Below, piece by piece: positions 33,393 through 38,140 of a stretch of DNA of 64,000 nucleotides (position 1 is the stretch's first letter; each line of letters begins with the position of its first letter). The position numbers and the translations under genes were made by a program. Where the stretch lies: NCBI RefSeq assembly GCF_000467185.1, contig NZ_BATM01000005.1, positions 62,001 through 126,000 of the forward strand, read 5' to 3'. The notes under the pieces were generated by a model. The model saw nothing but the letters and a program-made list of their open reading frames with translations. It was not told the origin of the DNA and made no database searches. This stretch comes from Vibrio ezurae NBRC 102218. GTDB taxonomy: Bacteria > Pseudomonadota > Gammaproteobacteria > Enterobacterales > Vibrionaceae.

Positions 33393-33991
33393 TAGTAGTT
33401 CCCTCTATATGAGATGAATTTGAAGTCCCCATATTGGCTAGCGGTAATCGTGACTGTGATTTTTTTAAATAAATCCTGACTGGCATCTCCTAAGCGAGTG
33501 TCATGGTCATATTCAACCTTCACTTCCGCTCTAAAACCTAAATAATCGCCACTGATATCACTACCAAAAATATCGGTTAATTTTCCGCCATGAGTTTTAT
33601 CAATACAGCTATTTTGCGAATCAGTGGTGGTGTACCAACAACCTATATAATCATCCACGTCATTAAATAACGCGGGCGGTTCATTGTTGTCAGGACCAAA
33701 ATCGGCACTTGCGGTACATAGGATAGGTTGAGCGGAACTATCAATATAGTCACTTTCACCACAACGATATCTTCCGCCATCATGATCACTGTGTTCATCA
33801 AAGTTTCTGGCTAAGATTTCAGTCATCAAGCTTGAGCCTAATGCCGATGCTCGCACTTCGTAAAAAGGCTTAGCTGATTGGCTGATTTGAGGAAACAGGA
33901 AACTGGTCAAGGTGATTAGAGCAATCCCCAAGATAACAATAGCGATGATGCTTTCAATAAGTGTAAAGCCAGCCTGCTTTTTAACAGCCAT
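33392..33991 (-). CDS. mshD: MSHA minor pilin MshD
   Basis: A prepilin of about 199 residues with leader ending K-K-Q-A-G, F-T-L-I-E-S and the usual hydrophobic helix; likely a PilV-type minor pilin. The frame is open to 34048, but an AGGGG ribosome site seven bases ahead of the ATG at 33991 (M-A-V-K-K-Q-A-G-F) and the short leader expected of prepilins favour that start. It overlaps the mshC 3' end by 11 bp. Several cysteines in the globular part may form disulfides. Confidence 0.88.
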   Translation of the reverse strand: MAVKKQAGFTLIESIIAIVILGIALITLTSFLFPQISQSAKPFYEVRASALGSSLMTEILARNFDEHSDHDGGRYRCGESDYIDSSAQPILCTASADFGPDNNEPPALFNDVDDYIGCWYTTTDSQNSCIDKTHGGKLTDIFGSDISGDYLGFRAEVKVEYDHDTRLGDASQDLFKKITVTITASQYGDFKFISYRGNY

Positions 33992-34478
33992 AAACATACC
34001 CCTGACTATTAATGCAGATCTCTTGCTGATCTTGAGTGCTAGCAACAAGAATATGGATAGACTGACCTGCTACTGGCGTGGTGCAACCTGAACTGCAAGT
34101 AGGGTTGCCCAATAAATCAAAATCAATGGTCATTGAAGGCGAAAAGCTCATATCTTGATTTTCTAGAACCACTACATTGCTCAGAGGTTGGGTATTGGTG
34201 GTGCAGGCTTGTTGCGAACCTAAGCATTGCCCCGTCACCACTAAGCGAAATCGTTGATGAAGTAAGCTACTATCTTCAATATTAGACTGCATTCTGCCAA
34301 GTTGAATTTGCCGAATAACAGCAATGCCTTGCTGCTGTGCGGCCTGAGCAGAAAACTGTGATACACCAATATATTTACTTGAGGCATACAAAGACAAAAT
34401 CGCAGCCACGATTATGACAATAATCAGCTCGACCAAGGTAAAACCTTTTATATTCTTTGCAATAGGCTGGTGATCCAT
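33981..34478 (-). CDS. mshC: MSHA minor pilin MshC
   Basis: A 165-residue type IV prepilin-like protein (G-F-T-L-V-E at about residues 12-17, hydrophobic helix to about 35), FimT/MshC type. Paired cysteines in the C-terminal half (two close pairs and the last residue) suggest disulfides. It begins the mshC-D-O-P-Q unit, separated from the pilin array by a terminator and preceded by its own candidate -10 box. Confidence 0.88.
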   Translation of the reverse strand: MDHQPIAKNIKGFTLVELIIVIIVAAILSLYASSKYIGVSQFSAQAAQQQGIAVIRQIQLGRMQSNIEDSSLLHQRFRLVVTGQCLGSQQACTTNTQPLSNVVVLENQDMSFSPSMTIDFDLLGNPTCSSGCTTPVAGQSIHILVASTQDQQEICINSQGYVYGC

Positions 34479-34514
34479 TGCTTGTCCCTAACCAATGAAA
34501 ACGTAAGTAATTAG

Positions 34515-34520
34515 ATTATA
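34515..34520 (-). promoter_or_regulatory. candidate -10 box for the mshCDOPQ unit
   Basis: The minus strand reads a perfect TATAAT here, 37 bp before the mshC ATG and just downstream of the terminator that ends the preceding pilin gene. The -35 is weak (TTAGCG at about 18 bp). Placement between a terminator and an ORF supports a real promoter. Confidence 0.45.
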
Positions 34521-34571
34521 TAGAATTGAATGCAATCTCGCTAAGAAATAGCATGATTGTTGGGAATAAAA

Positions 34572-34593
34572 AAGGTCAGCGATTGCTGACCTT
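34572..34593 (-). terminator. rho-independent terminator after pilin gene mshA copy 1
   Basis: A 9-bp perfect stem (34572-34580 with 34585-34593, loop GATT) followed on the minus strand by a T-run and ATTCCC. It lies 16 bp past the stop of the pilin gene. Confidence 0.92.
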
Positions 34594-34609
34594 AGTTTGA
34601 TGTTAATAA

Positions 34610-35074
34610 TTAACAGCCTGAATCAATAACGGTTATCGATGGAACAGCAACTGACGTTGCTCCTTTATAATCCACATAACAGTTTGTATTCCTGATATCT
34701 AAAGCTCCAGATACAGAGCCAGAGAAAGTAGCAAAGAGCGAAGAGTCATGGGTTCCGTAAGCCCAATCACCTTTATCATCTAGGCCTTGAACAGCACGCA
34801 CAATCCCCGTCGGATATGCCACAGGATAGCCATAAGCAATCTCTATATTACTTGCTAGAGCACTTGATACTCGAGTTTCTTTCCCTTCGATAACTGATTT
34901 ACTATAAACAATAGATGCAGCACTAGTCATTGCGCCTTTCAAGCCTTGTAAAGAAGATTTACGTGCATCAGATTGCAAGTTCAAAAAGCGAGGAGCGGCT
35001 GTTACAGCTAGAACACCTAGAATAACTATTACCACTACAAGCTCAATAAGTGTAAAACCACCTTGCCTTTTCAT
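34610..35074 (-). CDS. MshA-like major pilin, tandem copy 1 (mshC-proximal)
   Basis: Type IVa prepilin of 154 residues: leader M-K-R-Q-G-G, mature start F-T-L-I-E, hydrophobic assembly helix and a globular domain ending in a C-terminal disulfide loop (Cys132 to the last residue). The frame extends to a GTG at 35098, but the ATG at 35074 has an AAAAGG ribosome site and gives the short leader expected of MshA. The first 66 residues are nearly identical to the two other copies; the globular half differs. Which copy makes the main fibre cannot be told from sequence alone. Confidence 0.9.
   Translation of the reverse strand: MKRQGGFTLIELVVVIVILGVLAVTAAPRFLNLQSDARKSSLQGLKGAMTSAASIVYSKSVIEGKETRVSSALASNIEIAYGYPVAYPTGIVRAVQGLDDKGDWAYGTHDSSLFATFSGSVSGALDIRNTNCYVDYKGATSVAVPSITVIDSGC
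34877..35074 (-). repeat. pilin 5' coding repeat, copy 1
   Basis: The first 66 codons of this pilin gene are nearly the same, in protein and largely in DNA, as 35651-35848 and 36480-36677. Direct repeats of about 200 bp at roughly 0.8-kb intervals allow recombination between copies. Confidence 0.85.
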
Positions 35075-35342
35075 TTTGTCGCCTTTTATATAACCCACTA
35101 TACCTATTGCTAAGCATGTTAACTTGTAAGTAAATATAAATAGGCGTTATAGGTCAAATTTACGGTAGATAGCGATATTCTTTTTTATAATATATAGCGT
35201 TATGGAAGGTTATATTTGAATATATAATTCTTTGTTTACAATGCGCAGGATATGCAGTGCAATGAGTATCGAAATAATATGTCTTATATGGAATCGAACT
35301 TAGTTTCGTTAATAAATATGTTACTTAATGAGATGCATAAAA
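35075..35342 (-). other. upstream region of pilin copy 1
   Basis: A very AT-rich spacer between two pilin genes. 35104-35140 contains a segment alignable with the regions upstream of the other two pilin genes, probably the promoter. No gene seen in the rest. Confidence 0.5.
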
Positions 35343-35363
35343 AAGACCGATAAAGTCGGCCTT
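35343..35363 (-). terminator. rho-independent terminator after pilin copy 2
   Basis: An 8-bp stem on the minus strand with one G-U pair (35343-35350 with 35356-35363, 5-nt loop), followed by a run of T and AT. It lies 20 bp past the pilin stop. Confidence 0.85.
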
Positions 35364-35383
35364 CTGGAATCTAATATTCTAAG

Positions 35384-35848
35384 TTAGCAATCATTATCAA
35401 CAACAGTTGCTTTGGCTGATAAATTAGCGGCGGTACTTGTCGCCGGATCATATCGAACATAACAGCCATTGGTATCAGTAAACTGACTGGAATCTTGTCC
35501 TTTGAATGTAAAGGTCATATCTGAACTGTTTAAAAATACAAGCATCCAATCTTTCTCTAATCCGTCCACAGCTTTCATTATGCCTGTATCACTATTTGAT
35601 GGGTAACCATATACAATATCGATCCCTTCGATATCTGCTGTAGCTGAAGCTTCTTTACCTTCTATCACAGCCTTACTATAGACAATAGATGCTGCACTAG
35701 TCATCGCACCTTTTAAACCTTGTAAAGAGGACTTGCGTGCATCGGATTGTATATTTAAAAAGCGAGGAGCAGCTGTTACAGCTAGGATACCGAGAATGAC
35801 AATAACTACGACAAGTTCAATAAGCGTAAAGCCAACTTGTTTTTTCAT
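35384..35848 (-). CDS. MshA-like major pilin, tandem copy 2 (middle)
   Basis: A 154-residue type IVa prepilin with leader M-K-K-Q-V-G, F-T-L-I-E and an assembly helix almost identical to its neighbours; the globular part (from about residue 67) is distinct. The C-terminal disulfide loop runs from C-Y-V-R-Y to the last Cys. A GGGAAC-type ribosome site precedes the ATG. Own terminator downstream and a related upstream segment, so it may be transcribed singly. Compared with copies 1 and 3 it lacks the conserved S-G-S/N-x-S-G-A-x-x-I stretch before the loop, having a shorter replacement. Confidence 0.9.
   Translation of the reverse strand: MKKQVGFTLIELVVVIVILGILAVTAAPRFLNIQSDARKSSLQGLKGAMTSAASIVYSKAVIEGKEASATADIEGIDIVYGYPSNSDTGIMKAVDGLEKDWMLVFLNSSDMTFTFKGQDSSQFTDTNGCYVRYDPATSTAANLSAKATVVDNDC
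35651..35848 (-). repeat. pilin 5' coding repeat, copy 2
   Basis: Second copy of the shared 66-codon pilin 5' segment described at 34877-35074. Confidence 0.85.
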
Positions 35849-36069
35849 ATTGTTCCCTTTATATGCACAATTCTAATTATTACTAAATAGCTTAGTTTCT
35901 GAGGTGATTTAAACAAGAGATGTACTAATTTTTTACTATAAATTGACATCTTAACTACTACTATAAATCTTTGTTCTAAACCAGTAAATAATCGTCAGAT
36001 ATCATAAGTGAAGTATCATATAAGGAGTATGCTGAAGACTATAATTGTTCTATATATTAAAATAAAAAA
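35849..36069 (-). other. upstream region of pilin copy 2
   Basis: AT-rich, no gene. 35880-35917 holds the shared upstream element (minus strand CTTGTTTA near its start, TATTTAGTAA at its end) that is also found at 36714-36752 and, more diverged, at 35104-35140. Confidence 0.5.
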
Positions 36070-36100
36070 GTCTGACTTCGAAAAAGTATCGAAATCAGAC
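36070..36100 (-). terminator. rho-independent terminator after pilin copy 3
   Basis: A 12-bp stem on the minus strand with one wobble pair (36070-36081 with 36089-36100, 7-nt loop) followed by six T and ATTTT. It lies about 76 bp past the stop of the pilin gene. Confidence 0.88.
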
Positions 36101-36176
36101 CTTAAACTTCACTTAATAGAAATGTTCAATTTTAGGAAATCACTTCAAAGTGAAGCCAATTTATAAATTCTATTTA

Positions 36177-36677
36177 TTAACAGTCAGTAGCAGTTACGCT
36201 AATATCAGGAGTTGATGTTTCCGAATCAGCCTCTGTATATTGAACATAACAACCAGTATTTTTAATAGCTACTGCACCTGATGCATTGCCGGAAAATGTT
36301 GCGACTAGAGTTCCAGGAGTACTAGCGACTCCTTGAGTGTCTTCTGCATAGACCCATTCATTAGAGTCTTCTAGTCCTTGAACAACCTTAACTAGACCAT
36401 CTTTTGTTGCAGCAGGATAGCCAAAGTTAATTTCTGTCAAGTCATCCAAAGTAGGATAAGCTCCACTAACTTCTTCACGCTCTTTGCCTTCAATCGCAGC
36501 TTTACCATAAACGATAGAGCCTGCACCTGCCATTGCACCCTTCAAGCCTTGTAGAGAAGACTCACGTGCATCAGATTGTAGATTCAAAAAGCGAGGAGCA
36601 GCTGTTACAGCTAGGATACCTAGGATAACGATAACTACTACAAGCTCAATAAGTGTAAAACCGCCTTGCTTCTTCAT
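36177..36677 (-). CDS. mshA: MSHA major pilin MshA (tandem copy 3, mshB-proximal)
   Basis: A 166-residue type IVa prepilin with leader M-K-K-Q-G-G, cleavage before F-T-L-I-E, the assembly helix and a globular domain ending in a disulfide loop (C-Y-V-Q-Y to the final Cys). Of the three copies it is closest to the V. cholerae MshA pattern I recall (A-G-A-x-x-I-V-Y-G-K-A-A-I) and directly follows mshB as mshA does there, so it is the best candidate for the main subunit. It has its own upstream element and terminator. Confidence 0.93.
   Translation of the reverse strand: MKKQGGFTLIELVVVIVILGILAVTAAPRFLNLQSDARESSLQGLKGAMAGAGSIVYGKAAIEGKEREEVSGAYPTLDDLTEINFGYPAATKDGLVKVVQGLEDSNEWVYAEDTQGVASTPGTLVATFSGNASGAVAIKNTGCYVQYTEADSETSTPDISVTATDC
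36480..36677 (-). repeat. pilin 5' coding repeat, copy 3
   Basis: Third copy of the shared 66-codon pilin 5' segment described at 34877-35074. Confidence 0.85.
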
Positions 36678-37010
36678 ATTTTCTACCTTTTATGTATTTA
36701 ACATACTTGAACTGTTACTAAATATATTAACTCGTAAAATAATATAAACAAGTGATATGCATGCTTTTTTATAACATATCGACTCATTTTTTCATTTTCT
36801 AATCTCTTGTTTTCACAAGGATAATCTTAGAGCGTATAACTTTTCATCTGTTCTATGTTAAACCATAGACCAGATGACATCTTTTTCTACATGAAAGCAT
36901 GACAAAAGCGCTCTAAAAACCATTTTGATTATCAGTAGCCGCAATACACGATATCCAAGAGGTCATTGCTACTCACAGGTTAATCTTACGAAGCACTTAT
37001 GTCACTTTCA
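36678..37010 (-). other. upstream region of mshA copy 3, between mshB and the pilin array
   Basis: No gene. 36714-36752 carries the shared pilin upstream element; within it the minus strand reads TTGTTT, 16 bp, TAATAT, a plausible promoter. A 14-bp hairpin with one mismatch lies at 36844-36877 (arms begin TCATCTG and end CAGATGA). It has no T-run on the minus strand, so it does not look like an mshB terminator; it may be an operator or mRNA processing structure. Confidence 0.5.
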
Positions 37011-37589
37011 TTAATTTAAAACTACGTTAACCGCACCTTTAGACACATCATAATCAAAGTAATGTGCAGAAGTCGTTTGATTACCACTTAACTGAGTATA
37101 ACGACAGTTAACACCACTTAATTCCGCTGAATATTTGATAGTGCTATCAGTAGCCACGTCAGCTGTTGTGCCCACTTTCGGTGGGTTTTGCAGTAAGTTT
37201 TCAAATAAATCAACACACGCTGCTTCCGTCAAAGCCGTTGGTGATGCAGCTGTTGGTATAGTGTCACCTGCAAATGCGATAGGGTAACCATCACGAAGAA
37301 CGGTAGTAGTTCCATTTTCTGATGAGGTTAGTTGGAAATAGCTTCCATCATAATCAACAAAATTACTATTTTTATCAGTCGCATCGGCACGAGGACGTTG
37401 CTCAGCTTCCCACTGGGCTCGAGCTGATAATACAGCGGTAGCAAATCCGCCAGCCACACCTTCTATACTTGCTTCTTTTGCTTTGTCAGTTACGTTTAAG
37501 AATCTAGGCAATGCAGCAACAGCTAACAGACCAAGCACTACGATAACGATAACAAGTTCAACCAAAGAAAAACCGGAGTTACGTTTCAT
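37011..37589 (-). CDS. mshB: MSHA minor pilin MshB
   Basis: A 192-residue prepilin with leader M-K-R-N-S-G, F-S-L-V-E, hydrophobic helix and a longer globular domain than the MshA copies, with two cysteines. It begins the structural half of the locus; in V. cholerae mshB is also the first structural gene and has been reported to follow a promoter. It carries Asp-rich stretches in the middle. Start is the ATG at 37589. Confidence 0.9.
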   Translation of the reverse strand: MKRNSGFSLVELVIVIVVLGLLAVAALPRFLNVTDKAKEASIEGVAGGFATAVLSARAQWEAEQRPRADATDKNSNFVDYDGSYFQLTSSENGTTTVLRDGYPIAFAGDTIPTAASPTALTEAACVDLFENLLQNPPKVGTTADVATDSTIKYSAELSGVNCRYTQLSGNQTTSAHYFDYDVSKGAVNVVLN

Positions 37590-37624
37590 AAAAAATCCCT
37601 CTTGGGTACAAATTTGGATGGCAG

Positions 37625-37675
37625 ATTATATACCTATTGTTCAAATAATCTACTCATGAATGTACATAGATGTAC
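37625..37675 (-). promoter_or_regulatory. candidate promoter and operator of the msh structural operon
   Basis: The minus strand has a perfect TATAAT at 37625-37630, 35 bp before the mshB ATG. A perfect 14-bp palindrome, GTACAT-AG-ATGTAC, lies at 37662-37675, centred about 41 bp upstream of the -10 and thus near -50 relative to a start site, a usual place for an activator. No good -35 hexamer is seen, which fits activator dependence. Confidence 0.5.
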
Positions 37676-37684
37676 GAAATATCT

Positions 37685-38140
37685 TCAATGTTCCTTTTGA
37701 ATAGATAGACTTCCTCCAACCATTTTTATCACTAATACCTCTTGGTTACTAAAAGTATAGGCACATGAATACACGTTACCCGCCTGAAATAATTCGACTG
37801 ATATCGGCGAATACTCCTGCTTCGATTTTGGCAATATGATGGTCTGCCAAGCTTCGCAACTTTGTACTTCATCCAATATCGGTTTTACCCAGCCTTTATC
37901 ATTAAACGACACCGTTTTATCGTTAATCTTGGCCTGCATTGGCTTACCATGCATCTCCCAATGCTGACGCAAATGGTTAGCCCTTAAAAGTGCTTTGCTG
38001 GCAATTAACGATACTAATGTACTTTCGGCTTCTGTCCTTATTCGATGCATCGCAGTCAGCAATACTGCGATTAAAATCAGCACAACACTGCCCCAAGCGG
38101 CCAGTTGAACTAAGTTAGAATTTCGATAACTTGTTTCCAC
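37685..38140 (-). CDS. mshF: MSHA biogenesis protein MshF
   Basis: A protein of about 151 residues with one transmembrane helix near the N-terminus (about 12-30) and a short extracytoplasmic part; MshF is specific to MSHA systems and its role is not established. The frame opens at a GTG at 38173, but a GTG at 38140, 2 bp past the mshG stop with AAGGA five bases upstream, is the better start. Last gene of the assembly half of the locus. Confidence 0.8.
   Translation of the reverse strand: METSYRNSNLVQLAAWGSVVLILIAVLLTAMHRIRTEAESTLVSLIASKALLRANHLRQHWEMHGKPMQAKINDKTVSFNDKGWVKPILDEVQSCEAWQTIILPKSKQEYSPISVELFQAGNVYSCAYTFSNQEVLVIKMVGGSLSIQKEH

Follow-up and report, generated by a model that had tools for sequence, protein, structure and literature searches.

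Between mshB and mshC of an msh gene cluster, a stretch of 64,000 nucleotides (nt) from Vibrio ezurae NBRC 102218 (contig NZ_BATM01000005.1, positions 62,001 to 126,000; hereafter the window) carries three mshA genes in tandem, here named A1, A2 and A3. MshA is the major pilin of the mannose-sensitive haemagglutinin (MSHA) pilus, an attachment pilus studied in V. cholerae, whose retraction has been followed together with transduction by the VGJ phage and whose MshE is under cyclic di-GMP control (PMC7096442). The three genes adjoin a single msh assembly cluster within the window, and the order of the locus, on the minus strand, is mshG, mshF, mshB, A1, A2, A3, mshC, mshD, mshO, mshP. Labels other than MshA follow the gene order of V. 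cholerae, and no family model named these genes; the mshG product has NCBIfam GspF and PilC matches, every one of them below cut-off, and among the gene labels of the locus a solved structure backs the MshA identity only. The start of A3 was set at ATG 35074 (leader MKRQGG) in preference to the GTG at 35098 of the open reading frame (ORF) list. Two sister genomes, V. halioticoli NBRC 102217 (the nearest named genome, MshG 99% identical) and a genome denoted G155, have MshC 99% identical to that of the window and were used for close comparison. The features are as follows.

36677-36177, minus strand: A1 (mshA copy 1), intact ORF, 166 amino acids, putative principal MshA pilin
35848-35384, minus strand: A2 (mshA copy 2), intact ORF, 154 amino acids, putative accessory MshA pilin
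35074-34610, minus strand: A3 (mshA copy 3), intact ORF from ATG 35074, 154 amino acids, putative accessory MshA pilin
36752-36713, minus strand: promoter-like element of A1, ending 35 nt before the ATG, rank 1, score 37.7
35917-35878, minus strand: promoter-like element of A2, ending 29 nt before the ATG, rank 2, score 24.4
35144-35105, minus strand: weaker promoter-like element of A3, ending 30 nt before the ATG, score 8.6
36103-36067, minus strand: terminator 3' of A1, from the terminator scan, fold -20.1 kcal/mol, z -6.3
35363-35343, minus strand: terminator 3' of A2, from a second search after the first scan had missed it, fold -11.5 kcal/mol, z -3.7
34593-34572, minus strand: terminator 3' of A3, from the terminator scan, fold -14.4 kcal/mol, z -6.9
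34889-34625, minus strand: head tract of A3, a 265-nt block difference from both near-identical relatives with 94 window-only sites
37589-37011, minus strand: upstream pilin gene with a prepilin N-terminus, presumably mshB by gene order
34478-33981, minus strand: downstream pilin gene with a prepilin N-terminus, presumably mshC by gene order
39363-38143, minus strand: inner-membrane assembly protein of the PilC/GspF type, presumably mshG by gene order

The three products have the leaders MKKQGG, MKKQVG and MKRQGG followed by FTLIE, with phenylalanine at +1 and glutamate at +5, and each matches the N_methyl family. Each also carries a C-terminal cysteine pair, two cysteine columns being invariant in 48/48 aligned MshA proteins, and each is encoded between mshB and mshC of the msh cluster, the position by which MshA is recognised. 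By sequence they match 9lab, the MshA pilus of Shewanella oneidensis solved by cryo-EM (A1, E 1.4e-27; A2, E 1.6e-24, over the first 70 residues only; A3, E 5.8e-25). The AlphaFold2 models of A2 and A3 (mean predicted local distance difference test, pLDDT, 86.9 and 92.9) both consist of a long helix and a small mixed head, and in a Foldseek comparison of the A3 model with the PDB the sole match at E <=0.001 is again 9lab (E 5.2e-8, template-modelling score about 0.6, root-mean-square deviation 6.6). On these models A2 and A3 are predicted to be pilins, and the A3 model to have the MshA fold.

The first-pass annotation of the window had recognised three tandem mshA-type pilin genes, each with its own terminator, and both statements are confirmed by the three complete ORFs between mshB and mshC and by the strong fold 3' of each copy. 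The terminators cannot, however, be taken to mark separate expression in particular: one is present in 63 of the 72 mshA-mshC gaps of single-copy named loci, versus 3% of gaps after shuffling. In multi-copy named loci, terminators occur in 6/6 mshA-mshC gaps and in 4/7 gaps between copies. Sequence signs of a transcription unit of its own are present for every copy, in the form of a promoter-like element and a terminator. No terminator was found in the gap between mshB and A1, so that A1 may also be transcribed from mshB. The same spacer holds an imperfect inverted repeat (36844-36877), present in the window and in G155, V. halioticoli having other sequence there. Known RNA families gave no match at 33900-37800 up to E 0.1.

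The upstream element consists of CTTGTTTA, a gap of 15-16 nt, and TAATATATTTAGTAACA or a close variant, and it looks like a promoter in its sequence. Its model was built from eight relatives, the window and the two sister genomes being excluded; the eight were picked after the spacers of the window had been seen. Over both strands of the window the A1 element ranks first and the A2 element second, and that of A3 is listed sixth (the fifth distinct site); the A3 element is weak, two unrelated sites in the window scoring above its 8.6. A plain sigma-70 scan returned 14 sites versus 12.6 in shuffles (standard deviation 3.9), that is, no excess.

Codon usage is unequal among the three copies. The codon adaptation index (CAI), referred to eight ribosomal-protein genes and with z taken against background codon use, is 0.587 for A1 (z 5.5), 0.380 for A2 (z -0.6), 0.420 for A3 (z 1.4) and 0.380 for mshC (z -0.4), so that codon bias would point to A1 only as the most abundant subunit. 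The 5' halves alone, which lie mostly outside the replaced tract described below, give 0.715, 0.404 and 0.509 for A1, A2 and A3, respectively. For comparison, the median CAI in 73 single-copy named loci is 0.50 for mshA (range 0.31-0.68), 0.43 for mshB and 0.38 for mshC. Across 19 distinct multi-copy loci, a count that takes in the window and leaves out six repeat assemblies, one copy is ahead by at least 0.09 in 18, the leaders having a median of 0.58 versus 0.42 for the 23 other copies. In seven relatives the element was found before one copy only, and the high-CAI copy is its bearer in 7/7; leader and bearer is the second copy in V. comitans, V. superstes, V. inusitatus, G113, G082 and G131, and the first in FRSSP16.

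The three copies had initially been set against a single mshA in V. cholerae; V. cholerae is absent from the named loci compared, among which V. mimicus (L053) is single-copy. Of 98 other genomes sampled evenly across the genus, 84 match mshA at E <=1e-12, and the locus was read in all of these (59, all single-copy, plus 25 holding every multi-copy case): six of the 84 have more than one mshA, five with two and one with three. Ranked by MshG similarity, the best 80 named loci include 73 with one copy, 5 with two, 1 with three (V. halioticoli) and 1 on a short contig that lacks the region; a second set of 60 loci, picked partly for nearness or a multi-copy look and overlapping with the 80, includes 40 with one copy, 15 with two, 3 with three and 2 with none. 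Copies were detected by their prepilin motif, so that motif-less ones would escape, and small headless pilin-like ORFs were initially missed. The latter occur between mshA and mshC in eight Vibrio loci (L146, L148, L158, L166, L173, L197, L199 and L204) as stretches of 79-97 printed characters, lead-in and stop included, with an N-terminal helix, a short charged tail and no cysteine pair; one was looked for, and not found, in the gaps of the window. In L012 a separate duplication, and a younger one, has left the second mshA behind an apparent copy of the mshA-mshC spacer (synonymous divergence, dS, of the 5' half 0.36).

The first 66 codons of the window copies, previously described as nearly identical, are 82-83% identical in nucleotides and 86-92% in amino acids (dS 0.76-1.23); the similarity is high and the description somewhat overstated. 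In the reference set of 75 mshA genes (loci L014-L088), to which each window copy has a median 5' nucleotide identity of 69-71%, only 2-3% of between-species pairs reach 83%. The 5' halves therefore exceed most between-species mshA pairs at the nucleotide level, but at the protein level only A2-A3 is exceptional (1.4% of between-species pairs reach it), A1-A2 and A1-A3 being ordinary (22% and 33%). The 5' half of A1 is 92-98% identical in nucleotides to seven of ten clade orthologues (V. halioticoli A1, G155 A1, V. comitans A2, V. superstes A2, V. inusitatus A2, G113 A2 and FRSSP16 A1) and 89%, 88% and 83% identical to the other three (G015, G131 A2 and G082 A2), the value for A2 and A3 of its own genome being 83%. 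Likewise, the 5' half of each copy in V. halioticoli and G155 is 92-99% identical in nucleotides to that of the window copy at the same position, versus 83% among the window copies. In the 5' tree A1 falls with the mshA of the clade (support 0.87), while A2 pairs with A3 (0.93). As judged from these comparisons, A1 is orthologous to the mshA of its clade, and, on the strength of the identity matrix and the tree, the three copies are old within the clade, their 5' halves not undergoing homogenisation. Gene conversion among the window copies was not seen in the 5' identity matrix, the tree or the private sites, the one weak hint coming from V. halioticoli A2, in which a short tract may have been converted, 5/6 private sites matching its own A1.

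Duplication with divergence of the remainder of the gene, which encodes the head, is borne out, the heads of the window copies being 34-44% identical in amino acids as against the 5' values given above. Relative to V. halioticoli and G155, respectively, the head of A1 is 90% and 86% identical, that of A2 97% and 98%, and that of A3 52% and 52%. The A3 difference is a block: the 94 window-only sites fall within 265 nt, with 9 in the 241 nt upstream and none in the 185 nt downstream, and dS between the window and its relatives is about 1.6 in the head versus 0.27-0.33 in the 5' half of the gene. From this pattern I take the block to be an imported diverged head, acquired either in the lineage of the window or in that of its relatives. 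Neither A1 nor A2 is its source, since their heads are 43-44% and about 40% identical to it, and no donor was found in loci L009-L148 and the window, where the best matches are the A3 orthologues themselves (52%), followed by others at 41-48%. Nor, among the three near genomes, does the head of one copy recur in a different copy of a relative, each sister head being closest to its positional orthologue. The heads are reshaped by recombination, apparently through import. In the head tree A2 groups with V. comitans A2 (0.97), though the 5' half of the latter is of the A1 type, so that heads and 5' halves have separate histories.

Along the same line, 11 other close pairs, from single-copy or other loci and with mshG genes at least 92% identical, were compared: in nine the heads are at most 77% identical, mshC being 84-97% identical in seven of these and 67% in two. 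The 5' half is also lowered in the nine pairs (73-90%), so that the exchanged stretch often extends into it; the two remaining pairs (heads 96% and 86%) have no such block. The consequence of this mosaic is that the surface type of MshA is not inferable from the species or from the neighbouring genes. Comparison of the window, V. halioticoli and G155 with one another gives 2-3 replacements and 3-9 silent changes for the heads of A2, as against 10-15 and 4-7, respectively, for those of A1 (Fisher p 0.02, 0.05 and 0.30). By these counts A2 is near constant, A1 is changing by points and A3 has changed as a block. The middle of mshB (37061-37414) also differs strongly among the three genomes (up to 18/60 columns), the ends of that gene being conserved. 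Decay of two of the three copies, by which the initial proposal could have fallen, is rejected, as every copy is open, all nine copies of the three genomes having intact frames of equal lengths, and A2 is nearly unchanged.

The locus therefore comprises three intact genes with promoter-like elements and terminators, an unequal codon bias, few replacements in A2 and a block difference in A3. The interpretation I favour, with a confidence somewhat better than even, is that A1 would be the main MSHA subunit, A2 and A3 being accessory pilins whose expression is weak or conditional and whose heads are exchangeable, served by the same machine. Each copy would stand on its own small transcription unit, and, because leader, N-terminal helix and cysteine pair are kept in all three, any of them could be incorporated into a fibre by the one MSHA machine. 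A1 would supply the bulk. A2 and A3 would be produced in small amounts or in different circumstances, entering the A1 fibre as a mixture or now and then giving fibres whose surface is different. The heads would behave as exchangeable modules, foreign ones being brought in by recombination, as in A3; it would be anchored in the conserved 5' coding region on one side and, on the other, in the conserved stretch made up of the end of the gene and the spacer beyond it. I infer the transcription levels, the assembly, the mixing and the driver of head change (phage or host contact). In favour of this reading, suppressor alleles of mshA in V. cholerae are said to promote the assembly of the parental MshA into a filament (PMC9815625); strains with two mshA alleles and lower levels of minor pilins are described in the same source.

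Several points weigh against this interpretation. The evidence is that of sequence. The copies on which the element model was trained are mostly of high CAI, so that the ranks, and the lower scores of A2 and A3, follow in part from the choice of training copies; nor does a score measure strength. The codon bias of mshB is also somewhat raised (CAI 0.471, z 2.8), and locus L118 breaks the one-leader pattern (CAI 0.50, 0.50 and 0.40). The 19 multi-copy loci are not independent, three being near-identical genomes and several others belonging to one clade, and CAI was measured for all species on the ribosomal genes of one genome. The contrast in replacements between A1 and A2 is modest. Finally, three adjacent mshA-annotated genes of V. 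tapetis rise together about two-fold in biofilm (PMC6313714), contrary to what separate switching would predict.

In the proposal originally made for the locus, all three copies would be major pilins of equal standing, each expressed in a condition of its own, and one machine would yield three fibres that differ antigenically. A promoter-like element and a terminator for each gene, and heads so far apart, are what it would expect, and Thermus thermophilus does make two pili from different pilins (PMC7203116). It is nevertheless unlikely: high-expression codon bias is found in A1 alone, which is also the clade's mshA orthologue, the same inequality recurs in 18/19 multi-copy loci, the A3 element is weak, and the adjacent genes of V. 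tapetis are induced jointly (PMC6313714).

A rather improbable alternative would make A2 and A3 minor or tip pilins, acting in initiation or adhesion and not as shaft subunits, for which their codon bias, near that of mshC (0.380), could be adduced. Against it, blastp classes the copies of V. halioticoli and G155 with MshA and not with the neighbouring pilins, A2 and A3 keep the MshA helix and cysteine columns, and head exchange would presumably be unusual in a conserved initiation complex. Neutral birth and death, whereby tandem duplicates linger without a role of their own, would suit the scattered occurrence of multiple copies (6/84 genomes) and the separate duplication in L012, but it sits badly with an A2 nearly unchanged across three genomes, with nine open copies of equal lengths and with the retention of elements and terminators, and I consider it quite improbable. 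As for a donor reservoir for gene conversion into an expressed copy, as in pilin antigenic variation, the shared 5' halves and the possible tract in V. halioticoli A2 are outweighed by copies that have starts, promoter-like elements and terminators, by 5' halves closer to their orthologues (92-99%) than to one another (83%) and by an A3 head drawn from neither A1 nor A2, which leaves this second suggestion of the first-pass annotation very improbable as stated.

If A1 is indeed the main pilin and A2 and A3 are accessory to it, one machine would change the surface of the fibre while keeping the main fibre, and a relative that lives in the abalone gut would provide three natural subunits in which mixing could be set against switching. 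It is possible, though I hold this more tentatively, that the MSHA system recurrently includes accessory MshA pilins: several Vibrio lineages would combine one codon-optimised shaft pilin with one or two further MshA pilins of low expression, whose heads are exchangeable and which would decorate or switch the surface and allow new heads to be tried without risk to the main pilus. Elsewhere in the V. ezurae genome, two unlinked pilin genes with MshA-like N-termini (54% identity over 67 residues) were noted (C67:37319-37519, L004, and C32:28530-28730, L005); one of them adjoins a gene that I read as Fur-like. The genome gave no flagellin N-terminal domain match in a search that did match in 4/14 control genomes, and the MSHA of the source strain may act without a flagellum.

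Compared with the known MSHA major pilin of S. oneidensis (9lab) and V. cholerae, A1, A2 and A3 are alike in leader, N-terminal helix, cysteine pair, mshB and mshC flanks and downstream terminator; the window differs in its three copies, of which two show no high-expression codon bias, in a promoter-like element before each, and the block difference in the A3 head. In the pilE/pilS antigenic variation of Neisseria, a constant 5' part is joined to a variable 3' part and the donor copies lack promoter and start; the window copies, unlike those donors, are full-length and have starts as well as promoter-like elements and terminators; homogenisation was not seen among them. The annotation of tandem mshA genes is already in print for V. 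tapetis, where a2706, a2707 and a2708, adjacent within one MSH cluster and annotated as mshA or MshA pilin, are the genes about two-fold up in biofilm by RNA sequencing (PMC6313714). The likeness to the window is by annotation, the V. tapetis quintayensis locus L059 having one mshA by motif count, and the relevant passages of that paper are silent on duplication or unequal roles. Beyond V. tapetis, nothing on tandem mshA genes or mshA head exchange was noticed among the matches listed in a literature search of open-licence papers.

Type IV systems with several pilins are known from other bacteria. The wide PilA4 and narrow PilA5 pili of T. thermophilus (PMC7203116) show one bacterium making two kinds of fibre from two pilins, which are, on my reading, different pilins and not copies sharing one helix as in the window. 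In Legionella, PilA2 and not PilA1 behaves as a major pilin (PMC13170364); like the window copies, the two are neighbouring monocistronic major-pilin paralogues, but they lie away from the assembly genes and are about 72% identical, differing along their whole length, and the same paper lists further species with two homologues, 7 with three and 1 with four. PilA1, PilA2 and PilA3 of Streptococcus sanguinis are three major pilins of unequal importance, the pili made of different subunits differing in form and function (PMC11121087). That system is Gram-positive, and its PilA1 and PilA3 are 94% identical, unlike the window copies; in its heteropolymeric pilus two major subunits are arranged stochastically (PMC10628169).

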